From NCBI GenBank assembly GCA_947044365.1, contig OX345640.1, positions 1,545,001 through 1,609,000 of the forward strand: a DNA stretch of 64,000 bases. Reading direction: 5' to 3'. A program made the position numbers and the translations under genes. Each line of letters begins with the position of its first letter. Position 1 is the first letter of the stretch. This document shows positions 7,250 to 56,194 of the stretch, piece by piece. Source of the stretch: Petrosia ficiformis. Its lineage: Eukaryota; Porifera; Demospongiae; Haplosclerida; Petrosiidae. The notes under the pieces are model-generated. The model made no database searches, was not told the DNA's origin, and was given only the letters and a program-made list of their open reading frames with translations.

Positions 7250-8907
7250 CATTATAATTAAATTACTTGAAACAGTTTGAACACCTGCGCTCCTGCACAT
7301 ATCAACCAGTAGATCTACGTCCGCCAAGAATGTGGCTAGCTGGACGTTACGTACGTGCGTCTGGGTCCCGGGAATTATATTATGGCTTCTTCGTAGTACA
7401 AAGTCTTGTACAATTGAAGGAAAATGAAACAAGGAAAATGAAACAAGAAATGAAAAAAGGAAATGAAAAAAGGAAATGAAATAAAATAAGTTTGAGAGTA
7501 TATAGGCAAACGGGACTATATTATGGTGTTAGCTATTATAGCCAAAAGCAACAATTTATTACACAATGTATATAGGTGTGTGCATACATTTATCTAGATG
7601 GTTAATGCTATACATAATGAAATTTTCAATTTTGTCAACAGCCAATTAAAATAATTATGGTACTGAACACAAGTGGTGCGATGTTATAATCATATATATA
7701 AGTAATATTATACTGATCATGAGTAGTATTATACTGATTACAAGTGGCACAGTACTAATCATGAGTGATATATTGATCATGAGTAAGTATCATATGATCA
7801 TGTGTGGCACTGTACTAATCATGAGTGATATTACATTGATCGTGAGTAAGTATTATACTGATCACGAGTGGCGATGTACTAATCACAAGTGATATTATAT
7901 TGATTGTGAGTAAGTATCATAATGATCATGTGTGGCAATGTACTAATCATGAGTGATATTATATTGATCGTGAGTAAGTATTATACTGATCACGAGTGGC
8001 GATGTACTAATCACAAGTGATATTATATTGATTGTGAGTAAGTATCATAATGATCATGTGTGGCAATGTACTAATCATGAGTGATATTATATTGATTGTG
8101 AGTAAGTATTATACTGATCACAAGTGGCGATGTACTAATCACAAGTGATATTATATTGATTGTGAGTATCATAATGATCATGTGTGACAATGTACTAATC
8201 ATGAGTGATATTATATTGATCGTGAGTAAGTATTATACTGATCACGAGTGGCGATGTACTAATCACAAGTGATATTATATTGATTGTGAGTAAGTATCAT
8301 AATGATCATGTGTGGCAATGTACTAATCATGAGTGATATTATATTGATTGTGAGTAAGTATTATACTGATCACAAGTGGCGATGTACTAATCACAAGTGA
8401 TATTATATTGATTGTGAGTATCATAATGATCATGTGTGACAATGTACTAATCATGAGTGATATTATATTGATCGTGAGTAAGTATTATACTGATCACGAG
8501 TGGCGATGTACTAATCACAAGTGATATTATATTGATTGTAAGTATCATATGATCATGTGTGGCAATGTACTAATCATATACTAATTATAAGTATTATATA
8601 CTGATCATGAGTATTATACTAATCATGAGCATTCCATTACAGTTATTTCAGTACACTGTATTTCAGACATTTCTATTACATGTATCACTTTTGACAGTCG
8701 TAATAAGATATTTACAGGCAGACAATAGTATACATGAATATTTACAGTATAGGCCTACATGATTATAATATACAGTAAATAAATGCAAAAATATAATGAA
8801 CAAAAAAATTGTTAATTTGAGAAAACCATTTATATTGATACTGTCTCCATTATCCAAAAGTTACTTCATCCCGGATCCCACGTCCAGCCTAGGTTGACGT
8901 ATAACTT
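7250..8907. other. Intergenic stretch between MAEL pseudogene and receptor copy 1
   Basis: No gene is seen here. It holds the receptor's upstream region (7,250-7,680) and a large AT-rich minisatellite (7,680-8,640). The last part matches the MAEL 3' flank of unit 2 (35,740-35,966). Confidence 0.7.
7680..8640. repeat. Minisatellite with TGATCA palindromes
   Basis: Units such as TACTAATCATGAGTGATATT alternate with GATCACGAGTGGCGATG. Larger units of 128 and 124 bp alternate (GATCATGTGTG at 7924, 8052, 8176, 8304, 8428), giving a 252-bp higher-order period. Unit 2 has only a short unexpanded version at about 35,530-35,730, so most expansion followed the duplication. Confidence 0.9.
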
Positions 8908-12105: not shown

Positions 12106-12257
12106 TTAAATTTGTAATGGAATCGCCCCACATTACTTAAGCCTGATTAGATAGTATTTTTGCTATTTATCTATTCAGGGTAGGACTAGTGTCACCATTT
12201 CTAACAGTAACTTCATAGTTTATGAAACTTGGCCTAAGTGCAAAATTTATTAAGAGT

Positions 12258-12660
12258 ATATAGAGTACGCAACGAATATTCGGTCGGACACAGCATATAT
12301 TCGGACGTCACGCTTACTCAACTAGCAGTTCAATTGTACTGGTTTAGGTATAATCTTGTAACTTGCAACTAAACTGTTTCGCACTGCCAGTTTGGATTCG
12401 ATTCGTCGAATCTGTATCTTTGGAGAAAAGAAAAAATGCTATATTTCGGACTCGCCCATGTTCGGAAAAAATCATCCTTTTTCGTACACATTGTTTTACT
12501 CTTTCTAGAAAAAAGATAAAAGATGGGTTTCAGTTTTAATACAATCTCCTATTAATACTCTACTAGATTACCGGCACAACAACAGAATGCTCCGTTGCGT
12601 AAGAAAGTTAGTTTTGCAGCTCTATAAGGGAGGTGTGGCTGTAATAGTCGGACACGTGAT
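12258..12660 (+). repeat. Left terminal inverted repeat of the pogo-like element
   Basis: Reverse-complement match to 19,440-19,837 over roughly 400 bp, with scattered mismatches. Shared blocks include GCAGTTCAATTGTACTG, TATATTTCGGACTCGCCCAT and AGATTACCGGCACAACAACA. Such long repeats are unusual for pogo elements, whose ends are usually a few tens of bp. Confidence 0.92.
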
Positions 12661-12956
12661 TTTGATTCCAGGGACCTCGTGTATACTTTTTGTGATTACT
12701 GTTTGTGTAATTATATACATATTCTCATAACCAAGTAAGTATTTGACTTGATTACTAAGAAACTATGGTGTAAAAAAACTCAAACAAATGTTTTTCTCTA
12801 GCTATTCTGTATTTGCTTTTTTGTTTGTTTTCCTTTTGTATAACGATCCTTGTTATAGTTTATGCTACTGATTAAAATTTAAAACATGAGTGACATTTTG
12901 CCCTGCACCTCCTACTTTAATTTAATTTTTTTTATCTTTTAGAAATATATACGAAT

Positions 12957-14742
12957 GTGAAGATGCTAACTCGTCCTTTGAAAGATCGAATCTTTAATTC
13001 AAAACAAGCTGTTTTTGTTCCAAGTGGTGTGAGTTCTAGACCTATGCAATATAAATGTTGGACTGAAGAAAGATTATATAAAGCATTTGAAGCAGTAACA
13101 AAAGGGGGTGTATCTGTTCGCCATGCTGCTGAGGAATATAATGTACCCAAGAGCACACTTCATGATCGCATTTCAGGAAAGGTGGTATTTGGTTCACAGA
13201 GTGGTCCTCCTAAATATCTAAGTAATAAAGAGGAAGAAGAGCTGGTCAACTTCATTCTAGGATGCTCCTCAATTGGTTTCCCTCGATCTCGTAAAGAGAT
13301 AATTGCAATTGTACAAAATGTTATGTTGGAGAAGGGTCACAATATCACAGTGACTAATGGATGGTGGGATTCATTTAGAAAGCGTTACCCATTTCTTACT
13401 TTGCGAAGTCCTGAGCCTCTTTCACATGCTCGAGCTAATATGTAGCTCTTCCGATGTGATTAATAAATACTTTGATCTCTTAGAAGAAACTTTGGAGCAG
13501 AATGATTTGACAAGGAAACCCTGTCAAATATTCAATTGTGATGAATCTGGGTTCCCTCTTGATCCCTCCTCTCCTAGGGTAGTAGTTGCAAAAGGAGAAA
13601 AACATCCTTACTCCGTATCAAGTGGAGTCAAAACACAAATAACAGTTCTTTCCTGTTGTGATGCTGGTGGCTATGTCATCCCTCCTTTAATCATCTTTGA
13701 TCGCAAAGCAATAAAAGCAGAAATGACTGTTGGAGAGGTTCCAGGTTCTATGTATGGTACCTCTGATAGTGGATGGATTGATGGAGATTTATTTGACCTG
13801 TGGTTTCGACATCACTTTTTAGCTCATGCCCCACCTCTTCGCCCACTATTACTTCTTCTAGATGGTCATTCATCTCACTATACACCTAGTATAATTAACA
13901 AAGCTGCTCAAGAAGGTGTTATCATATTTTGTTTACCTCCTCACTCGACTCATATTACACAACCTCTTGACAAGGGTTGCTTTGGTTCACTGAAGAGATG
14001 CTGGCAAGAGGAGTGCCATAGATTCACTACTGATAATCCTGGTAAAGTTGTAAGTAGGTTTTCATTTAGCCAAGTGTTCCATCAGGCCTGGACGCGTGGA
14101 ATGACAATGCATAATGTAATTACTGGTTTTCGTATAACCGGTGTGTTCCCTGTAAATAGAGATGCTGTTCTTCCTTCACCTCCTCAATTAGCCTCTCCTA
14201 AATTAGTTTCCAAAGAGTTAACAGAAAAGACTGGAGTGTCATTTATTCCATTATACAGTCCTGTAGTAAAGAAGAAGCAACCTCACAATGTTATGACCTT
14301 TAGTGATGATGAGAGAGTACGTTTTCAACGCAGATATGAGGAGGGTTATGATTTACAATGTGATGAAAAATACAATGAATGGGTTAAGATGTATCATCCA
14401 TCCAGTTCAATCACACCACCTCAAACTCCTCCCTCAGGTTCACACATCAGTGATTCGTCCCAAAATTATCATTGTTTATCTTCACTGGCTTCTATAGAAA
14501 CCTTGCCTATAACATCTACTCCATCATTAGAAGAAACTACATGTACAGTGAGCTTACCCTGCTCTAGTATTCTTTCCAAATGGATTGACAAACAGCCAAC
14601 CATTAAGATGCCACGAAAAGATACTAAAGCTTCTGCACGTATACTAACAAGTGAGGAGAGCATAAGAATAATGGAGGAAAAAGAGAGAAATAGAAGTAAA
14701 GAAAGCAGAAAGGCAACAGAAAAGACTAGAGAAACAATTGGA
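12957..14742 (+). pseudogene. pogo/Tigger-family transposase, frameshifted
   Basis: A psq/CENP-B-type HTH lies at the N-terminus (residues about 40-80; AAEEYNVPKSTLHDRISGK), followed by a second helix-turn-helix region with GWWDSFRKRYPFL. The DDE_1 catalytic core has the first Asp in NCDESG, the second in LLLDGHSSHY and the third in HITQPLDKGCFG. The last two are separated by 35 residues (DD35D), typical of pogo/Tigger. The first frame stops at 13,445 and the catalytic domain continues in the +1 frame from about 13,443. No GT-AG intron explains the shift, so a one-base indel (or sequence error) is likely. The C-terminus is basic (KESRKATEKTRE) and ends at a donor AAAAG|GTAATT at about 14,743, joining the cassette exons. 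The start at 12,957 is the first ATG of the open frame; an upstream exon is possible. Confidence 0.92.
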
Positions 14743-14927
14743 AAAAGGTAATTAATTATTTGTGGCTTTAAAATCACATTTTGTAATTTTTATTTCCTGA
14801 TTAGCTCAAAGAACTAATTCTCGTCAATCATCTTGCAGAGGGCTCAAACAAACTGTTGAAAAGTCCAAAGGTATGTACATGTAATATAACCACATGTAAA
14901 TGTATTCTAGTATGCATGTATTTATAG

Positions 14928-17717
14928 GTACACAAGTAAATGAACAGAGTGATTCAGATGTTCCCACAAATTCCCATACAAAAACTGTCAAGAAGTCGAC
15001 TGGTCTTAGAAGTATGTAATATATCTACATGTGAATGTATTTTAGTATGTGTGTATTTATAGGTACACAAGTGAATGAACAGAGTGATTCAGATGGTCCC
15101 ACAAATTCCCATACAAAAACTGTCAAGAAGTCGACTGGTCTTAGAGGTATGTGATATATCTACATGTGAATGTACTCTAGTATGTGTGTATTTATAGGTA
15201 CAAAAGTAAATGAACAGAATGATGTAGATGGTCCCACAAATTCCCGTAGAAAAACTGACAAGAGGTTGACTGGTCTTAGAGGTATGTGATATATCTACAT
15301 GTAAATGTACTCTAGTATGTGTGTATTTATAGGTACAAAAGTAAATGAACAGAGTGATTCAGATGGTCCCACAAATTCCCATACAAAAACTGTCAAGAGG
15401 TTGACTGGTCTTAGAGGTATGTGATATACCTACATGTGAATGTATTCTAGTATGTGTGTATTTATAGGTACACAAGTAAATGAACAGAGTGATTCAGATG
15501 GTCCCACAAATTCCCATACAAAAACTGTCAAGAAGTCGACTGGTCTTAGAAGTATGTAATATATCTACATGTGAATGTATTTTAGTATGTGTGTATTTAT
15601 AGGTACACAAGTGAATGAACAGAGTGATTCAGATGGTCCCACAAATTCCCATACAAAAACTGTCAAGAAGTCGACTGGTCTTAGAGGTATGTGATATATC
15701 TACATGTGAATGTACTCTAGTATGTGTGTATTTATAGGTACAAAAGTAAATGAACAGAATGATGTAGATGGTCCCACAAATTCCCGTAGAAAAACTGACA
15801 AGAGGTTGACTGGTCTTAGAGGTATGTGATATATCTACATGTAAATGTACTCTAGTATGTGTGTATTTATAGGTACAAAAGTAAATGAACAGAGTGATTC
15901 AGATGGTCCCACAAATTCCCATACAAAAACTGTCAAGAGGTTGACTGGTCTTAGAGGTATGTGATATACCTACATGTGAATGTATTCTAGTATGTGTGTA
16001 TTTATAGGTACACAAGTAAATGAACAGAGTGATTCAGATGGTCCCACAAATTCCCGTACAAAAACTGTCAAGAAGTCGACTGGTCTTAGAGGTATGTGAT
16101 ATATCTACATGTGAATGTACTCTAGTATGTGTGTATTTATAGGTACAAAAGTAAATGAACAGAGTGATTCAGATGGTCCCACAAATTCCCATACAAAAAC
16201 TGTCAAGAAGTCGACTGGTCTTAGAGGTATGTGATATATCTACATGTGAATGTACTCTAGTATGTGTGTATTTATAGGTACAAAAGTAAATGAACAGAAT
16301 GATGTAGATGGTCCCACAAATTCCCGTAGAAAAACTGACAAGAGGTTGACTGGTCTTAGAGGTATGTGATATATCTACATGTAAATGTACTCTAGTATGT
16401 GTGTATTTATAGGTACAAAAGTAAATGAACAGAGTGATTCAGATGGTCCCACAAATTCCCATACAAAAACTGTCAAGAGGTTGACTGGTCTTAGAGGTAT
16501 GTGATATACCTACATGTGAATGTATTCTAGTATGTGTGTATTTATAGGTACACAAGTAAATGAACAGAGTGATTCAGATGGTCCCACAAATTCCCATACA
16601 AAAACTGTCAAGAAGTCGACTGGTCTTAGAAGTATGTAATATATCTACATGTGAATGTATTTTAGTATGTGTGTATTTATAGGTACACAAGTGAATGAAC
16701 AGAGTGATTCAGATGGTCCCACAAATTCCCATACAAAAACTGTCAAGAAGTCGACTGGTCTTAGAGGTATGTGATATATCTACATGTGAATGTACTCTAG
16801 TATGTGTGTATTTATAGGTACAAAAGTAAATGAACAGAATGATGTAGATGGTCCCACAAATTCCCGTAGAAAAACTGACAAGAGGTTGACTGGTCTTAGA
16901 GGTATGTGATATATCTACATGTAAATGTACTCTAGTATGTGTGTATTTATAGGTACAAAAGTAAATGAACAGAGTGATTCAGATGGTCCCACAAATTCCC
17001 ATACAAAAACTGTCAAGAGGTTGACTGGTCTTAGAGGTATGTGATATACCTACATGTGAATGTATTCTAGTATGTGTGTATTTATAGGTACACAAGTAAA
17101 TGAACAGAGTGATTCAGATGGTCCCACAAATTCCCGTACAAAAACTGTCAAGAAGTCGACTGGTCTTAGAGGTATGTGATATATCTACATGTGAATGTAC
17201 TCTAGTATGTGTGTATTTATAGGTACAAAAGTAAATGAACAGAGTGATTCAGATGGTCCCACAAATTCCCATACAAAAACTGTCAAGAAGTCGACTGGTC
17301 TTAGAGGTATGTGATATATCTACATGTGAATGTACTCTAGTATGTGTGTATTTATAGGTACAAAAGTAAATGAACAGAATGATGTAGATGGTCCCACAAA
17401 TTCCCGTAGAAAAACTGACAAGAGGTTGACTGGTCTTAGAGGTATGTGATATACCTACATGTGAATGTACTCTAGTATGTGTGTATTTATAGGTACACAA
17501 GTAAATGAACAGAGTGATTCAGATGGTCCCACAAATTCTCATACAAAAACTGTCAAGAAGTCGACTGGTCTTAGAGGTATGTGATATATCTACATGTGAA
17601 TGTACTCTAGTATGTGTGTATTTATAGGTACAAAAGTAAATGAACAGAATGATGTAGATGGTCCCACAAATTCCCGTAGAAAAACTGACAAGAGGTTGAC
17701 TGATCTTAGAAGTACAG
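14928..17717 (+). repeat. 21-unit array of 135-bp exon-intron cassettes
   Basis: Period is exactly 135 bp: TGAACAGA occurs at 14941, 15076, 15211 and so on to 17641. Each unit has TTTATAG|, an 84-bp open exon, then |GTATGT and a 51-bp intron. The exon is phase 1-1 (28 codons), so any number can be joined without changing frame. The peptide begins GTQVNEQSDSDGPTNS and ends KKSTGLR; it is polar, basic and probably disordered. Four unit types (A, B, C, D) recur in order, giving a 540-bp higher-order repeat. Units 5-11 and 13-19 also match as a longer 1,080-bp repeat. The last exon (17,628-17,717) has two extra codons. The array sits between transposase and PHD finger, so its spliced product would be a variable linker of up to about 590 residues. 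Confidence 0.93.
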
Positions 17718-17869
17718 GTATGAAATATACATCTATTATGTGTGTATGTATACATTTTCTGTCTACATGTACACCCAGTGTACTTCCCAGAGCAGCAAGG
17801 AGGCAGGGCATTCCACCCTTTTTAATTCTTGTCTGTAGTAGGTGAGGACCATGGAATATCATTCCTTGT

Positions 17870-19384
17870 GTTTCATAGAGGCGTGATATAGTAGTTCAAC
17901 GTGCTGCTTCCACTGTACAGAAGCAGGCTCTTATGCTTGGAACCACAGCTAGTGCACATAGTAGTATTATTGCCGTTGAAGCTTCCTGTACTATGTTCTC
18001 TTTGCAAAGAAAGGGTGTTCTGAAATGTATGTATCTTTACAATTATAGTTACATATCATGGTAATAAATGGACCACCCTTATAAAAAAAATATATCTGGG
18101 GAGAACCCTCTGTACACTCACAATATGTAACATTAAAAGATCGAGGTAACAAATGGCAACTTTAGTTTCTAGAACATGCTGCAATACTAAAAGTTGCCTT
18201 GTGTTAAATTGCACTTTTAAGGCTGCATATTATAGGTGTGATATAATCCTAATTTCAGATTCAAAAAGCAACAAAGAAGTGGATGATGTATGTGAAGAAG
18301 GTTGGTGGTTAACAAAATATAATGTTTTGGCATTGTTTTAAAGTTGCTATTCATCAGTGATGTCTAACATATCCATGTTGACAGTACTATTGTGTGTTTG
18401 AAAATTGCCATCTGTAACCAGACAAAATTAATAGTCTTAAACTGCCTACAACATGAATCCTTAGTGGAGAAGTAAAAAGTTTACCCCTCCTTACTCTCTA
18501 GTTCATTAATTTGTTGGCCTAGGAAAAGTTTAAAATACTCCTTAGTTTTATACTATTAAGTACATTAATAATTACATAATCATCATAATTATAATTATAA
18601 TCATTATAATTATAGTAGTTAATTATTATGACCCGTAGGCATGGGAAAGTCGGTCATGATTACTAAATTAAACATCACAAAAGAATTACAGGGATACTTT
18701 TTATGGCCTGTAGGGCCATCCCTATAATTGCTTTCCCATGGGTTTGAATTATATATATATATATATATATATATCCTTGTCTCACTTGCATGAGTATGCA
18801 TTGTATATGTAGTTATTAAGGAAGTTGCGTCATTCCGGGAGGCTCAGTCAATTAATGAGTGTAGTGTGTAAAACAGTGCACGCTCGAGCTACATTCAACT
18901 TGGGATGTAAAACTGTAACTAATACTAATAACTGTTGTACATGTATATAGCAGAGAAACATAAACAATGTGCAAGCATTTTTAGCTAGCAAGTATAAGTT
19001 GTTACATTTCAAATGTGAGCAAATCATCAATTAGAGCCTTTAAGGAGTTCTTCAGTTTCATCAAATATCTATGTACTTAGACTGTACTTACTTCATCAGG
19101 CCCTAGTTTTTGAATTCACAGAAGGGTAGAGACATTAGTGGCATCAGCAATGATTGATACATAGTCATTGTATAAGGATACTTTTTTTTCTCAATATATA
19201 TTGTTTGTTAATGCAGAAATAGAGATTTGTCAGAAATGTTTGACTATCTGTGATGGAGATGAAGAAGATTGGGTCGGATGTGACCACTGTTGGCGCTGGT
19301 ATCATGCACTACAGCTGTTTGGGCTATAGTACAAGACCCTTAGATAGTGAATATTTGGCATGTCCAAAATGTGTTACTGATTAA
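17870..19384 (+). pseudogene. C-terminal exons of transposon protein with PHD finger
   Basis: An open exon at about 17,878-18,030 (RRDIVVQRAAST, then CTMFSLQRKGVLK) is followed by one at about 18,260-18,302 (SKSNKEVDDVCEE) and one from 19,217. The last gives EICQKCLTICDGDEED, VGCDHCWRWYH and, in the next frame, HYSCLGYS and ACPKCVTD before a stop at 19,384. The spacing (C-x2-C, C-x2-C, H-x4-C, C-x2-C) fits a PHD finger, a domain that commonly reads histone H3 tails. About four extra bases near 19,306 split it into two frames. How the last cassette joins the first of these exons is unclear: no phase-correct acceptor was found. Confidence 0.75.
18610..18780. repeat. Dispersed short repeat nested in the transposon
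   Basis: Inverted ends (GCATGGGAAAG against CTTTCCCATGG) enclose a GGCCATCCCTATAATTGC block. A related block, inverted, appears at about 21,985-22,030. It ends in an (AT)n run at 18,750-18,774. Probably a small non-autonomous element. Confidence 0.45.
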
Positions 19385-19439
19385 CAATGATTCTTGGAAT
19401 GTCTAAATTGTGCCCCAAAATATTTTGTTTGACACACTT

Positions 19440-19837
19440 AATTAAGGCGTGGCTGTCCGAAAATACAGACAGCACCTCCTTTATGGAACTGTAAAACTAC
19501 TTTCTTGCGCTATGGACCTTTCTGTTGTTGTGCCGGTAATCTAGCAGAGTATTAACATTAGCATGTATTAAAACCGAAACTCAACTCTTGTCTTCTTTCT
19601 CGAAAGAATAAGGAGATGTGTACGAAAATGCATGATTTTTTCCGATTATGGGCGAGTCCGAAATATAGTATTGTTTGCTTTCTCCAAGAGTATAACTTCG
19701 ACGAATCTAGTCTAAACTGATGGTACAAAATAGGTTAGTTGCAAGTTACAGCAATGTAACTAAAGCAGTACAATTGAACTGCTTATTATGACGTCCGAAT
19801 ATTGGCTGTGTCCGAATATTCGTTGCGTACTCTATAT
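19440..19837 (-). repeat. Right terminal inverted repeat of the pogo-like element
   Basis: Partner of 12,258-12,660 in reverse complement; ends ...GAATATTCGTTGCGTACTCTA before TATACATACAC. Confidence 0.92.
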
Positions 19838-20368
19838 ACATACACTTTACCCTGACAAATAATTGGCTGGTTGTCTTGGACTCTCAGTTGAGAAGATTTA
19901 TAAATATAGAATTAGATAAGTGGTTGCAGACTTTGAATTGGAGCAAGATTGTTGTAGAGAGTGTGGTATTCACAAGTTAAAAAACAAGGAGATAGAAGCT
20001 ATATATCTTCATTTGAACAGGGGAATGATACTTTCGTTCGCAGTATTGATACTGGCTCCATAAATTGACATTTCATTTTCAATAGTATACTAATGTATGT
20101 ACGTACAACCCTACTTATAAGTGTAGTAATATAATAGTGATTACAATCATAAGTAATGAATAGAAGGAATACATCACGAATGCATAGTATTAAAATTGTT
20201 GAAAAAAGTATTCCTTATGAGTGAAAGAAACAAAGTCTTTATAACTTATAGTGATATATATGAGGGCCTAAAATATTTGTATTGCTTGTAACACTTTAAG
20301 AAGTACATAATAACAGTTCAGACTAATTATATTCATATAGCTACTTGATGAAATATAGAATAGAAAGT
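19838..20368. other. Intergenic stretch downstream of receptor copy 2
   Basis: AT-rich DNA between the transposon and the receptor's kinase-tail stop. No convincing coding segment is seen. The unit 2 end of the segmental duplication lies here or within the transposon-flanking bases; unit 1's equivalent is outside the window. Confidence 0.6.
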
Positions 20369-34197: not shown

Positions 34198-35966
34198 GGA
34201 CTCAGAAGGAATTAACTTGCCAGAACTATTTATATGAAATCACGAAAACAGTAATATAGTGTATAAAACATGTAGTATTATAGTATGACCCCATTCTATA
34301 GTTCCTCTGAAAACCACAGATGTTACTTACTCATTTCGGAGTAATTTTAAACAGTAATTATAAAACATAGGTATAACCCCATTCTATAGTTCCTCTGAAA
34401 AGCACAGATGTTACTTACTCATTTCGGAGTAATTTTAAACAGTAATTATAAAACATAGGTATAACCCCATTCTATAGTTCCTCTGAAAAGCACAGATGTT
34501 ACTTACTCATTTCGGAGTAATTTTAAACAGTAATTATAAAACATAGGTATAACCCCATTCTATAGTTCCTCTGAAAAGCACAGATGTTACTTACTCATTT
34601 CGGAGTAATTTTAAACAGTAATTATAAAACATAGGTATAACCCCATTCTATAGTTCCTCTGAAAAGCACAGATGTTACTTACTCATTTCGGAGTAATTTT
34701 AAACAGTAATTATAAAACATAGGTATAACCCCATTCTATAGTTCCTCTGAAAAGCACAGATGTTACTTACTCATTTCGGAGTAATTTTAAACAGTAATTA
34801 TAAAACATAGGTATAACCCCATTCTATAGTTCCTCTGAAAAGCACAGATGTTACTTACTCATTTCGGAGTAATTTTAAACAGTAATTATAAAACATAGGT
34901 ATAACCCCATTCTATAGTTCCTCTGAAAACCACAGATGTTACTTACTCATTTCAGAGTAATTTTAAACAGTAATATAGTGTATAAAACATGTAATATTAT
35001 AGGTATAACCTGTGGTGTATTATTTAAAAACTCCCATTCTACATTTTCTCTGAAAACCACAGATGTTACTTACTCATTTTGGAGTACTTACAATAACAAA
35101 TAATATCCGTTGTACCTAAATTAATTATGTCATGTACTTTATAATACTAGTCAATATAGATCACAATGAAAACATTATACCTTAAAAGAAAAGAATCAGT
35201 TTTAATAGCCTCAGGAGCATATTATTAATATAGTATTGAATCATGTAATCAAATGAGGGTAAAATAACTCATCAATACACTGGCAAGCCATGTGTATATA
35301 TAGAAACTGCAGCTTATAATCATAATTCTTACTTACATCTCCCAGTAACAATAATTTACATTATTCTAGTAGATATTACAGAAAGATTTGACCCTAAAAA
35401 TGATGGATAGCAATGTGCTAATTGGATAATAGTTCACACTGAAAGGGGTCTATAACTAACATTTCTGTGGTAATCCTGCAAGAAAATTGTAAATGCTCCT
35501 CATTATTTGTTCACAGTTCAATTCATTACATATTTACTAATCACGAGTGATATTACACTGATCATGAGTGAGTATTATACTGAGTGGCAATGTACTAATC
35601 ATGAGTATTATACTAATCATGAATGGTAATGTACTAATCATGATATTATGAATGGTAATGTACTAATCATGATACCGGTATTATATATTTATCATGAGTT
35701 GTAATTTACTGATGATCATGAGTATTTCCATTACAATTATTAGTTTCGACACAGCAGTGCGCTGTATTTTAGATATTTCTATTATCACTTTTGACAGTCA
35801 TAGTAAAATATTTACAGGCAGACAATAGTATACATGAATATTTACAGTATACATGATTATAATATACAGTAAATAAATGCAAAAATATAATGAACAAAAA
35901 AAATTGTTAATTTGAGAAAACCATTTTTATTGATACTGTCTCCATTATACAAAACCACAAGTGTAG
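34198..35966. other. Intergenic stretch between MAEL and receptor copy 2
   Basis: No gene seen. It contains the 88-bp array (34,283-34,985), an unremarkable AT-rich middle, a short form of the ATCATGAGTG minisatellite (35,530-35,730) and the MAEL 3' flank. It should include the receptor promoter and the MAEL polyadenylation region; no clear core motif could be assigned. Confidence 0.6.
34283..34985. repeat. 88-bp tandem repeat upstream of receptor copy 2
   Basis: GTATAACCCCATTCTATAGT recurs every 88 bp (34371, 34459, 34547, 34635, 34723, 34811, 34899), eight copies counting the diverged first. Internal copies are essentially identical, implying recent expansion or homogenisation. Absent upstream of copy 1. 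It begins about 90 bp before the receptor start codon. Confidence 0.95.
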
Positions 35967-51100: not shown

Positions 51101-52540
51101 TTATATGTTCTTAACAGTTGCAATTTTCTAACCCAAAATACTGATGAGTAGTGTGTATGACAGTGTCTCCAGACAAACACCAGACTACTAAATGGTCTCA
51201 TATTGAAGTACTATCATGTAATGTGTATGACAATGTCTCCAGACAAATGGTTCAGTAACACCAGACTACTAAATGGTCTCATATTAAAGTACAATCATGT
51301 AATGTGTATGACAATGTCTCCAGATAAATGGTTCAGTAACACCAGACTACTAAATGGTCTCATATTGGAGTACTATCATGTAATGTGTATGACAATGTCT
51401 CCAGACAAATGGTTCAGTAACACCAGACTACTAAATGGTCTCATATTAATGTAATGTGTATGACAATGTCTCCAGACAAATGGTTGTAACACCAGACTAC
51501 TAAATGGTCTCATATTGAAGTACAATCATGTAATGTGTATGACAATGTCTCCAGACAAATGGTTCAGTAACACCAGACTACTAAATGGTCTCATATTGAA
51601 GTACAATCATGTAGTGTGTATGACAAATGGTTCAGTAACACCAGACTACTAAATGGTCTCATATTGAAGTACAATCATGTAGCGTGTATGACAATGTCTC
51701 TAGACAAATGGTTCAGTAACACCAGACTACTAAATGGTCTCATATTGAAGTACAATCATGTAGCGTGTATGACAATGTCTCTAGACAAATGGTTCAGTAA
51801 CACCAGACTACTAAATGGTCTCATATTGAAGTACAATCATGTTGAATTTTCATTAGAAAACACATTCAATGCTTCTTATGTGCATGCAAAGTACTGTTAC
51901 CCAGGTAAGCATATTTATAAGATAAGGTGGGGTAATTCCGTTACACATTTAATGAGGAACTAACATCACAAGCAGTAACAAGGATAAACAGCTTTGTGAT
52001 TTTACTGTTAGCTATAATAAAAGTGTAGCATCTACTACTAGTCATTACAGCAATAAATAGTTTGTAAGTCCAACTTATACTGTAACAGCAACAGAGAAAT
52101 TTTGAATTTCTGGCATTGCCTTCTTCCCACTTTACCTTATGGAATCCATAGTAATGCACAGATCCTCTAAACTATTTGTAAGCTTAGTTTCAATTCAACA
52201 CGATTCTACTTAAGTATGCATATTTGTAGATGGATTCATGTGTGCATGTTGGTTAAACAATGATGTTGCACATTTTGCCAATACTTACCGTCCCAGCATC
52301 ATATGCTCCAAGAGTTTCCTTTGCATCAAGCAGATGTCCTTTAGATGAGAGGAGCACCACGTCCTTACTCCCTACCTTACATTTACGACCAAGAACAGAC
52401 TGCAAGGTGGACACACTATTATCAAACAAGATGAAAATTATACTCTACATTCATCATTTATATATACATCATTACTTTGCGGTTGGTGGTAGATTTTCAG
52501 CTAAAGAAACACCTTCTGAGACAAAAAATACTCGATACAT
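42707..52540 (-). CDS. RB1CC1: RB1CC1/FIP200 homologue, autophagy-initiation scaffold
   Basis: FIP200 scaffolds the ULK1/ATG13 complex and, through its C-terminal claw, binds autophagy receptors. Seventeen exons close in frame (966 residues): 52540-52476, 52415-52289, 50563-50286, 49769-49683, 49532-49367, 49007-48956, 48891-48785, 48422-48151, 48057-47958, 47634-47494, 47222-47119, 47032-45958, 45442-45408, 44387-44254, 44192-44174, 42903-42852 and 42793-42707. Order: ubiquitin-like N-terminus ([10 protein letters not shown]), ATG17-like helical region ([34 protein letters not shown]), a 358-residue exon with 17 QT motifs and a short coiled coil, then the claw ([33 protein letters not shown]). 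Human FIP200 has about 1,590 residues, largely because of a long coiled coil that is nearly absent here. Exon 15 (19 nt) is the least certain. Confidence 0.93.
43083..43290. mobile_element. MITE family with TIR CAGAGTTTTTGATA, copy 4
   Basis: TTTTTGATAAGCTCATATGG to TTCAAAAACTCT within FIP200 intron 15. It is followed by ACATAC-type simple repeat to about 43,440. Confidence 0.8.
43677..44133. mobile_element. TIR element carrying an open-frame fragment, FIP200 intron
   Basis: Ends TCAGGGTTGCCAGAT and ATCTGGCAACCCTGA in perfect inversion; ATTACAGT occurs close to both ends. Inside are repeated CATGAACTTT motifs and, at 43,844-43,975 on the plus strand, an open frame with a 14-residue repeat ([11 protein letters not shown] type) ending in a stop, preceded by TTTCAG. 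No transposase. Confidence 0.78.
44455..45015. repeat. Minisatellite, about 34-bp GGTACTG unit
   Basis: Degenerate tandem repeat of TATCAGTGCTGGTACTG plus TAGTACTGGAGTACTAG, with shorter variants toward the right. It lies in FIP200 intron 13. Confidence 0.93.
45096..45159. repeat. Perfect hairpin (inverted repeat)
   Basis: CAGAATGTTTCAACCTGGAG and its exact complement flank about 20 bp (CTTCTTACAGCTGAAAAAGA). The arms resemble the conserved 3' ends of Penelope-like elements, as does 23,990-24,025, so it may be an inverted pair of such ends. Confidence 0.85.
47290..47432. repeat. GATG/GATA microsatellite
   Basis: (GATG)n then GGTAGGTA then (GATA)n, in FIP200 intron 10, within 70 bp of both exons' splice sites. 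Confidence 0.92.
48425..48660. repeat. GATG microsatellite
   Basis: GGATGGATGGATTGATGGAT-type tetranucleotide array in FIP200 intron 7. It begins right beside the exon 8 acceptor (48,423). Confidence 0.93.
51140..51840. repeat. 81-bp minisatellite in FIP200 intron 2
   Basis: About eight copies of GTGTATGACAATGTCTCCAG ... CTAAATGGTCTCATATTGAA with a basic period of 81 bp (51223, 51304). Some units are shortened. Because 81 is divisible by 3, long open frames arise by chance. Confidence 0.93.
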
Positions 52541-52687: not shown

Positions 52688-54672
52688 TTAAATTTTGAAT
52701 TCCTCATCATTTGGATCTATGAATGGCTCTTCATGTTCTTTCCATATGCTTGAATCCAACAGCTAGTAATAACAAAAATAATAGCAAGATAGTGATGAGT
52801 CAGGTCAGTACAATACGATTTGGAAATCAGTATTCAATTGTATTGAGTACTGGACTGGACTGTGCATGCATGATCAAATGTATGCCATAGTATTATTATT
52901 ACATAAATTCACTAATTGTTTATTAATGAAACAGATATGGTATCAACTGATGCATTCAAAAAAGGGTGATGGCAGTAAGTACTCAATACCAGGAATCGAA
53001 GTACTGGTATTGAAGAACTGCCTATTGCACTGTTTTACAATACATCATGCATACATACATGTATATGTACATAATTACAGATATGATACCTGTAATTTAT
53101 CCATCGGGAAGATGTGTAAGGCAGTATCATTGAATATATTAGGTATAATAAATAAAGGAAGTTGTGTCTCAACAAACCCATCTTTAATCTGAAAAGGAAT
53201 ATACAATTAGACATACATGCAAAACATAATTATAGTGATCAGATACTGATGTCCATATATGCTGATTTTAAATTAACCCTGCTTAACCCTTCATCTTTGA
53301 AAGTATAATTTCAATAGTTCAACAGATTATATGTATATATCAGGGAGGGAGGAACTTGTAGGGCAAGTTAAGCAAGTGCCTTATTAGTTACGTATTTGAG
53401 AGTTGCAAACTACGTCGCTAACACTTCACTCCTGCTGTATATATACCGTATTGGTCAATCTGTTCAATCATTTGACTACAGAACATAACTCTCCATACTT
53501 GCAGTGAAGCTCTAATAATATTCAATATTTCAAATTCTTTATAATTATATTACTCAAATATCTTACCTTTAAAAGGTAATATGATTTTTGAAAAAGCTGT
53601 TTATCAGTCATTCTATAAAATTAGTATAATTAGTTAAAACAATTTAATATCATTTAGTAGATATAATATTAACTAATATCTTCCATTGTTTCTACTAATA
53701 TCTTCTATTGTTTCTACTAATATATTTCTACTAATATCTTCTATTGTTTCTACTAATATCTTCTATTGTTTCTACTAATATATTTCCATTGTTTCTACTA
53801 ATATATTTCCATTGTTTCTACTAATATCTTCTATTGTTTCTACTAATATCTTCTATTGTTTCTACTAATATATTTCCATTGTTTCTACTAATATATTTCC
53901 ATTGTTTCTACTAATATCTTCTATTGTTTCTACTAATATATTTCCATTGTTTCTACTAATATCTTCTATTGTTTCTACTAATATATTTCCATTGTTTCTA
54001 CTAATATCTTCTATTATTTCTACTAATATATTTCTACTATTATCCACCATTGCTTCTACCAATACCTTGCATTGTGTCTCATGTTATCTGCCATTGTTTA
54101 TTTTTGCTAATACCTCACATTATTTCTACTAATATCTTCCATTGTCCTATTCAGAAATACCGATAATCAAAAGAAAGTAGTAGAAACTATGAAAGTAGAA
54201 TTAGCAGAAACAATGGAAGATATCAGTGGAATTAATCAATTACTTGTCTTGTCTGTATTAAATACATATGTACATACATACATGAACCTTATGAAATAGC
54301 TGGAAAATTTATTTCCTATGATAAGCATTTGATTGAGTTGTTGTGTTTTCCAGTTTGCATATAACAAATTGTTGTACATTGATACACTGCAATGAGGCAT
54401 ATAGAACAAAGTGGATACATCAATGCTGTGTCTACAACGCTAAGAGAAAGAGAGGGAGAACTACGTAAGTGGATAAATCAGTACTGTGTCTACAACGCTA
54501 AGAGAAAGAGAGAGAGAACTACGTAAGTGGATAAATCAGTACTGTGTCTACAACGCTAAGAGAAAGAGAGAGAGAACTACGTAAGTGGATAAATCAGTAC
54601 TGTGTCTACAACACTAAGAGAAAGAGAGAGAGAACTACGTAAGTGGATAAATCAGTACTGTGTCTACAACAC

Positions 54673-54722
<50 letters not shown>

Positions 54723-56194
54723 ACATAAATAAATAAATCAGTACTGTGTCTACAACACTAAGAGAAAGAGAGAGAGAGAACTACGTAAATGAATAAATCA
54801 GTACTGTGTCTACAATGCTAAGAGAAAGAGAGAGGGAGAGCTACGTAAGTAGATAAATCAGTACTGTGTCTACAACTCAGAAAGAAAGATGGTTACAGTA
54901 TGTATGTATATGAAGGTGGTCAGTGGTGTGGAAACAGCCAGTCAATAGCAGTCATTTGCATACCTCATTATATCCAATATTCTGAAGTCCAAATTTTTCT
55001 AATACATCTATCTCATCATCAGTTAGAATGGGATCATATATTAATGCTTGTTTGACCTATTATAGAATCAATACCAGTTTAACCTGTTTTCATTAATATA
55101 CATGTATACAACTGAAGCTTCTATGCTGTTCGTATTTATGACTTTGGTCATTACTACACCTGGCACTTATGCAGGAGTGCTATAAATTGATCAGCTCGTG
55201 AACAAAATTTCATCAATTTTTCAATCTAGAATTATTTGAATACATGGACAGTATAACTTGTTGAAAAATGCTGAATTCTTAGATTGGATTCGAACTCATG
55301 ACCAAGGCCAATGGAGTAAAACCAAACCATACGCTCTCACTGGGAAGCATAATTTCTCCATCTAACATAACTATTATTTATGTACAAACATACTTATGTA
55401 CAAACATACACACATAAATACCTTTATTATCTCCATTAAACATAATAGAACAGACAACTGATACTGAGCTGTTAAATCACTGCTTACTCTACCAATACCA
55501 TAACATACTACTTTCTTTATATCAATTCCACTGTCATCAATGAGAGCTGGGCAATGATATATATACCAGTACATGCATAATTATAATTATAAATTATATA
55601 GCATTTCCATAGCATTTTTCATGGATATATAATTAGCTCAGCATACGTACAACAATACACAGGAAAGTGTGTGGTTGTATTTATGGTCCTTGTCGTAACA
55701 CAAAACTATCAATTTATAATTAATTTAATTTTTAACTAAACATGATTGTAGTTTAGTGTATTTAGGCTAATTCATTGTCTAACACACCAGACTACTCGGA
55801 TCAACAGAAGAGTTAATATTCATTACACCACACCACTGACCCATGGATAGTGAGTCAGAGGTGTGGTGTATATAGTATGAATATTAATGAGGTGCCATTC
55901 TTGTGAACCAACTAATGTACATATACAACATATAACATAGCGCTCACATTTAAGATATTCAGAATATTTCAAACAATTTTCATCACTCCTATACAAAGAT
56001 ATAATACTGAATGATATAGTCTGGACATTGCTTTAAACACATACTAACTTGAGCGTCGCTAATCTCTTGTATAAATTGTCATCTACTATATTCTCACTAC
56101 AAAATAGAGGGGTGTGTTTAGTGGAACGTGTCACTTGTCTCTTTGCACAGAGTGGATGTCCTTTAGTTACCAGCTTGAATCCATTTTCTTCCAT
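52688..56194 (-). CDS. SRRD: SRR1-like protein (SRRD)
   Basis: SRR1-domain protein. The plant relative affects circadian/light responses and animal SRRD has been tied to haem regulation; the molecular activity is unsettled. Eight exons in phase, 258 residues: 56194-56049, 55988-55948, 55546-55422, 55056-54964, 54439-54288, 53612-53567, 53188-53090 and 52762-52688. Family landmarks in order: VVCYGIGRVSSDLTAQYQL, YDPILTDDEIDVLEKFG, TLFYMPHC, MYNNLLYANW, MLIIGNKF, and a C-terminal FNDTALHIFPMDKL. The start is the first ATG of the open exon. The fifth exon's acceptor (CTCTTAG|CGTTGTAG) is the last of a series of near-identical acceptors in a 58-bp minisatellite, so splice choice here may vary. 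The FIP200 start codon lies only 147 bp downstream of the stop, on the same strand. Confidence 0.94.
53690..54060. repeat. Minisatellite TTTCTACTAATAT(C/A)TT...
   Basis: About 22-25-bp units TTCTACTAATATCTTCTATTG and TTCTACTAATATATTTCCATTG alternate, with longer-range periodicity. It lies in SRRD intron 5. Confidence 0.92.
54440..54895. repeat. 58-bp minisatellite containing repeated splice acceptors (SRRD intron 4)
   Basis: TGTCTACAACGCTAAGAG recurs at 54429 (true exon), 54487, 54545, 54603, 54661 and then about 54,748, 54,808 and 54,868. On the minus strand each unit reads CTCTCTTTCTCTTAG|CGTTGTAGACACAG..., copying the real acceptor and first exon bases, then a GTAGTT donor-like site 33 nt later. 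A (GA)n expansion lies at about 54,675-54,720. Confidence 0.93.

Follow-up and report, generated by a model that had tools for sequence, protein, structure and literature searches.

Pogo-superfamily transposons of the sponge Petrosia ficiformis carry tandem arrays of small cassettes with the layout of symmetric exons. Judging from their sequences, it is probable that these satellite-like arrays encode a disordered tether between the transposase and a PHD finger, and that their reading frame outweighs their sequence. Our broader reading, which we regard as evenly balanced between right and wrong, is that a large clade of sponge pogo elements carries "exon satellites", i.e., coding cassettes that would be amplified, homogenised and replaced like satellite DNA and yet kept as exons. 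Each family would then possess its own adjustable-length tether from transposase to histone reader; the architecture (transposase, phase-1 slot, PHD) would be inherited, and the cassette in the slot would be disposable. The original prediction covered a single window, i.e., the whole stretch of 64,000 nucleotides analysed here, with one array, which we name family W. The cassette design recurs in at least ten further unit families, and a design common to many transposon families with interchangeable cassettes is the larger finding.

The element in the window and its copies

The array belongs to a transposon with the following parts, where L009, L010 and L011 denote the other copies of the element.

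12261..12262, no strand: left TA target-site duplication, TA followed by GAGTACGC at the left end of the window copy, L009 and L011 (L010 lacks a clean one)
12263..19832, + strand: entire transposon of 7570 bp, bearing GAGTACGCAACGAATATTCGG as terminal inverted repeats
12963..13442, + strand: N-terminal part of the transposase with the HTH_psq DNA-binding domain (Pfam, 45.1 bits, cut-off 20.4)
13447..14747, + strand: transposase catalytic region plus Lys-rich tail, reaching the donor at 14748 (Pfam DDE_1 with 76.5 bits, cut-off 22)
14841..14870, + strand: putative short exon before the array, 30 nt with acceptor ...CAGAG (phase kept) or 32 nt with ...CAG (phase lost)
14928..17717, + strand: cassette array with 21 exons, all of 84 nt except the final one of 90 nt, and 20 introns of 51 nt, from Tandem Repeats Finder (TRF), unit parse and lag identity
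18259..18300, + strand: candidate phase 1-1 exon of 42 nt between array and PHD, kept in four copies
19217..19384, + strand: terminal PHD finger exon, placed by copy alignment; frame broken in the window copy and intact in L009, where Pfam PHD scores 29.1 bits (cut-off 24)
19833..19834, no strand: right TA target-site duplication, GCGTACTC followed by TA at the right end in the window, L009 and L011

Pfam domains and TA-flanked termini support the predicted pogo element, in which transposase and PHD are separated by a cassette array. It ends in GAGTACGCAACGAATATTCGG and the reverse complement thereof, with TA on both flanks. Its outer regions of about 400 bp constitute an imperfect inverted repeat, where the first 399 bp align to the opposite strand of the right end at 80%. 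HTH_Tnp_Tc5 reaches 18.9 bits in the transposase, under its Pfam cut-off of 22.2, and 35 residues separate the second and third catalytic Asp by hand count on the translation. According to the main text of Gao et al. 2020 (PMC7386202), the pogo superfamily shares with W the HTH_psq and DDE_1 domains, the DDD-type triad (about 29-56 residues between the last two), TA duplication and inverted repeats, which measure 392-856 bp in some unclassified insect elements. The W element differs by its length of 7.57 kb, beyond the 1.20-5.20 kb given there as a reported and not a defining range, and by a multi-exon gene that includes the cassette array and the PHD. That main text contains none of the words "intron", "tandem" and "sponge".

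The transposase is one unbroken frame of 612-622 aa in L009, L010 and L011, whereas the window copy is interrupted between its two transposase parts, near 13440. Further breaks relative to these copies lie in the Lys-rich tail, where L010 shares the break, and in the PHD exon, and hence the window copy is probably not functional. In the short exon before the array, the phase is kept only via the second of two close acceptors.

For the array itself, TRF reports a period of 135 with 21.0 copies and 94% matches over 14879-17714. A unit-by-unit parse yields 21 exons and 20 introns; all introns are exactly 51 nt long and read GTATGT...ATAG, and each exon is open in a single frame starting at its third base, i.e., in phase 1-1. 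The predicted 135-bp tandem units, composed of an 84-nt phase 1-1 exon, a GTATGT donor and a 51-nt intron, are thus real, with a last exon of 90 nt. Units four and eight positions apart are 98.6% and 99.0% identical, compared to 93.8-94.9% at lags 1-3 and 5-7, and the predicted higher-order repeats of 540 bp and 1,080 bp are therefore present as well. From their sequence, the introns look like short spliceosomal introns. The description of the cassettes as self-spliceable did not hold, as no Rfam family reached its gathering score in 12200-19900; group I or II self-splicing introns are ruled out there.

The Petrosia ficiformis genome holds three other copies of W, with 16 (C14), 15 (C1, 5.16 Mb) and 8 cassettes (C1, 19.85 Mb). 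The cassette number varies among copies as predicted, with 21, 16, 15 and 8 in the four of them and no copy without an array. In the diverged copy with eight cassettes, introns measure 43, 49, 52 or 55 nt; its first seven exons still have 84 nt, and its last one has 88 nt and is frame-broken. L009 contains a single 57-nt intron in its array. Across the family, intron lengths range freely (43, 49, 51, 52, 55, 57), and 59 of 60 exons are a multiple of three. The higher-order period comprises four units in the window and three in L009, L010 and L011, which indicates that the arrays were rebuilt independently and supports the satellite-like exchange put forward originally (lag 4 versus lag 3). A DNA search with a 540-bp cassette query located cassettes at four places only, all of them copies of the W element; as far as that search sees, W cassettes have no independent spread.

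Some further observations concern the window. At 17879-18025, an open stretch is kept in the four W copies; it has splice-like ends and a phase-0 acceptor, and is incompatible with a phase-1 chain. A dispersed repeat (18698-19213) in the intron upstream of the PHD exon matches about 35 other places at 72-77%, out of 3354 initial candidates; as all four W copies contain it, its insertion predates the spread of the family. Tandem repeats are abundant across the window: other arrays were found at 34283-34974, 7701-8577, 51176-51842 and 53672-54840, with an 88-bp unit at 99% identity, 64/128-bp, 81-bp, and 22/45- and 58-bp units. Some of them served as controls for the frame-blind scan described below.

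Cassette arrays in related families

Transposase relatives were collected by a DNA search and by a protein search with the transposase, resulting in at least 97 loci with transposase similarity among the scored candidates. We read 32 loci, 30 of which (all but L014 and L015) belong to the 97. A tandem array of 80-210-bp units lies downstream of the transposase at 25 of the 32, and these arrays represent 11 unit families. The exon lengths are 84 nt in W, 54 in A, 45 in B, 72 in C (also 69 and 81), 48 in D, 48 in E (also 39), 72 in F, 69/72 in the degenerate family G, 36 + 63 in the two-exon family H, 72 in I and 84 in J. Seven loci have no array (L013, L014, L015, L016, L021, L039, L040); L014 and L015 matched over about 50 bp only, and L039 and L040 hold two or three diverged repeats. 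The array-less L016 encodes a close relative of the window transposase (58% aa) in an intact frame of 707 aa; it is a relic or possibly a host gene.

Arrays reach up to about 27 near-identical small exons. Cassette numbers per copy amount to 26, 23 and 8 (parsed) in family D and to 4, 4, 6 and 5 in family A, while the 18 loci of family I have 0 to 8 full units and lie just downstream of a transposase match in 12 cases. Family G shows stops in four of nine units. Diverged units occupy the array edges in A, C, D and E, as in satellites. In family H (L032, 4740-6033 of the oriented strand), the unit spans 209 bp, and its exons of 36 and 63 nt are each a multiple of three and open in phase 1. In family C (L025, 7107-7373), the PHD exon opens with the same bases as the cassettes, and this shared start may be a clue to the origin of the unit.

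TA duplications with terminal inverted repeats were identified in three of four W copies, three of three in C and two of two in E (TA on shared ends). Scanning for exact 16-base inverted repeats gave no match in L026 (D), L032 (H) or L016. The collections of viral contigs and genome contigs yielded no relatives. Recent movement is evident in family C. Three of its copies agree at 100% over 6808 bp, their 19 cassettes included, and lie in different flanks at different TA sites; the left boundary of each reads TA|GAGTAAACGG, the right one CCGTTTACTC|TA. Thus, whole arrays were carried along in transposition. A fourth copy of C has an equal transposase score, PHD score and spacing (3443 bp).

Within 8 kb and on the same strand, a PHD match occurs downstream at 24 of the 97 transposase loci and upstream at none. 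This pairing used all 46 PHD matches, and a subset of 30 gives the same 24; as the PHD query came from family C, families with diverged PHDs were missed. Pfam scores exceed the cut-off of 24 in L009 (29.1) and L025 (27.2) and stay below it in L022 (22.6) and the window (19.3). The nearest solved structures to the sponge PHD are the PHD fingers of KDM5B, TAF3, BPTF and KDM5A, which are readers of H3K4me3.

A transposase tree of 17 rows distributes the array families over three supported clades, D+H (95/96), A+C+E+F (100/99) and W (100/100). W joins the proteins P0002, P0003, P0005 and P0006 (100/99), apart from the other array families, and the array-less L016 is unplaced. Three clades, together with cassette peptides that show no detectable similarity between families, indicate a slot that is either old or recurrent and whose content was replaced. 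In the turnover that we propose, entire units would be gained, lost and homogenised in a satellite-like manner by unequal exchange or by repair of the excision break; old units would drift at the array edges, and between families the unit would be replaced outright.

Reading frame and splice signals

In the proposed gene, a large exon with HTH_psq, DDE_1 and the Lys-rich tail would be followed by small phase 1-1 exons with short GT-AG introns and then by the PHD exon. The introns flanking the array and those within it are all phase 1, such that any number of cassettes could be spliced without a break of the frame.

The parse covers 300 units from 25 loci and all 11 families, with 103 distinct exon sequences; a length divisible by three is seen in 298 exons, and 295 are open in phase 1. 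This count takes in the three identical copies of family C and omits 12 exon starts for which no donor lies within 140 nt, mostly the PHD-adjacent start or diverged edge units; the motif-based parse misses diverged units, and L034, L035, L036, L037 and L029 have more units by TRF. Introns of up to 200 nt read GT...AG in 279 of 280 cases and GT...GG in one. Among distinct length changes within families, three of three gap runs in exons are multiples of three, compared to introns, where 15 of 23 are not. From these sequence patterns, splicing of the cassettes is strongly implied.

Since the splice sites had first been picked by eye, a frame-blind scan was run, which applies a textbook splice consensus to the TRF unit consensuses (family H, with its two-exon unit, was excluded). 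A multiple-of-three exon open in phase 1 was selected in nine of ten transposon arrays, but in one of 21 control strands, or in five of 21 with any frame allowed. The corresponding Fisher p of 4.8e-6 is too small, since the 21 strands derive from 11 overlapping TRF rows that represent about six distinct window arrays. For the window array the scan selects the same 84-nt exon. It prefers 30 nt in A (not 54) and 51 nt in B (not 45), both multiples of three and open in phase 1, and fails in G, where a 70-nt exon was chosen. In a family A locus (L020), a second in-frame acceptor lies 24 nt inside the exon, with a possible alternative exon of 30 nt.

The flanking exons are in matching phase. The transposase exon terminates at a phase-1 donor in C, D, E and two copies of W (L009 and L011); for A and F, no such donor was identified. 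A phase-1 acceptor, picked among several AGs, precedes the PHD exon in all seven PHD-bearing families (W, A, C, D, E, F, H). In silico splicing gives one open frame from transposase to PHD and stop in C (L025, 19 cassettes and one short exon, 1209 aa), D (L026, 23 cassettes, 1033 aa) and E (L028, 19 cassettes, 982 aa); these splices used the parsed cassettes and omitted other edge units, with the phase unaffected. A protein search with residues 640-1209 of the spliced C model, in which the best 7986 candidates by shared words were scored, returned its own transposase exon as the sole match. The predicted product would connect a transposase to a PHD chromatin reader through a linker that is disordered, mildly basic and several hundred residues long; the length and openness of this linker would be tolerated or selected, and its sequence would be of little consequence.

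Constraint on the cassettes and comparison with known systems

Within-family divergence is lower in exons than in introns for A, B, D, E, F and J, six of the nine families, and higher for W, C and I. The ratio pN/pS is greater than 1 in W (1.67), I (1.49), F (1.29) and J (1.29) and below 1 in D (0.40), H2 (0.48) and E (0.70), while A, C and H1 reveal no synonymous differences; hence, seven of ten exon types either exceed 1 or are without synonymous change. In W, the comparison of exon and intron substitution rates that was originally named as a possible refutation goes partly against the prediction: with mean p-distances of 0.071 in exons and 0.055 in introns, exons are not slower, and with pN/pS above 1 the amino-acid sequence of W is not visibly conserved; the frame, stop-freedom and splice signals alone are kept. 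In a stop-freedom simulation, 4.9 of 20 W exon types were expected to contain a stop, and the probability of none is 0.004, which makes the case look stronger than it is because shared descent is ignored.

Frame and splice signals kept and sequence not kept is a pattern that fits a spacer and equally a passenger. The latter is the strongest alternative, and we rate it somewhat below an even chance: phase-1 symmetry would hide the gain and loss of units, slippage or exchange would build the arrays, and length and sequence of the linker would be functionless. The pN/pS values, the unrelated cassette sequences of different families, the broad spread of copy numbers inside families and the wealth of tandem repeats in the window all agree with such a passenger. 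However, a neutral passenger should often be lost, while arrays are present in three supported transposase clades and at 25 of the 32 loci that we read, and 19 units persist in intact copies that moved recently.

Alternative splicing may regulate the cassette number instead, such that one element would make several transposase-PHD isoforms differing in reach or activity, or chiefly a transposase that lacks the PHD. Every cassette could be skipped in frame, family A has its second in-frame acceptor, and in C and W the transposase exon meets an in-frame stop few codons past the donor, such that intron retention would yield the transposase alone; still, the sequence gives no sign of regulated skipping, and we consider this unlikely. 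Less likely again is an array of cassettes which each bear a short basic motif, forming a multivalent region for binding of nucleic acids or partners instead of a passive spacer. All 11 cassette consensus peptides have K+R >= D+E, and TRG or SRG is found by eye in A, D, E, F, I and J; yet these motifs are absent from B, C and W, the net charge is small, and composition is the only feature in common, as one of 55 family pairs is similar at p<0.05 (15-33 residues against composition shuffles, a comparison of little power). That the arrays are satellites within one long intron and never exons, with coincidental phases, is very improbable despite the plentiful tandem repeats of the window and the like divergence of exon and intron parts in W, given that, over 11 unrelated units, 298 of 300 exons are multiples of three and 295 share one open phase, that the frame-blind scan gives nine of ten versus one of 21, and that the flanking exons match in phase.

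If the exon-array reading is true, satellite DNA dynamics act on exons under reading-frame constraint, inside mobile elements. Mobile copies are natural replicates, with one family at 8 to 21 cassettes per copy in one genome and identical 19-cassette copies at different sites. Therefore, the change of unit number in transposition, the role of linker length and sequence, and the splicing of dozens of near-identical exons are directly testable. One such question is whether a recombinase attached to a chromatin reader is affected by the length or the sequence of the disordered linker.

In the V(D)J recombinase, a DDE recombinase is coupled to a histone reader through the PHD finger of RAG2. There, the two reside in separate subunits and no cassette array is involved, and histone reading by the sponge PHD is a prediction. 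Small in-frame exons that can be added or skipped and that build repetitive, extended protein are known from titin PEVK, nebulin and collagen, which are slow-evolving host genes. In contrast, the sponge arrays sit in mobile elements and move along with them, their number differs between copies, and their units are unrelated in related families. The micro-exon genes of Schistosoma (see PMC10526429) likewise have many short exons per gene, but they are host genes for secreted proteins, with long introns, and not transposons. Our literature search, with most subscription papers outside its reach, found no description of such exon-cassette arrays in transposons. The Petrosia ficiformis assembly odPetFici3.1 is a PacBio HiFi assembly whose repeats, according to its description in PMC12648040, were masked before gene prediction. 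Masking of this kind could well hide such genes, which is a warning for annotation. The same paper names poly(A) RNA-Seq libraries of the species.

A predicted protein of 702 aa from Dysidea avara (P0096) resembles W in its HTH_psq and DDE_1 domains, Lys-rich tail and C-terminal PHD, while its gene model is without repeated cassettes between tail and PHD. The same order of domains implies that the partnership of transposase and PHD is not confined to Petrosia. Another relative, P0119 with 904 aa, has a long Ser/Arg/His-rich repetitive stretch after its DDE domain, which by its sequence appears to be another route to a repetitive tail.
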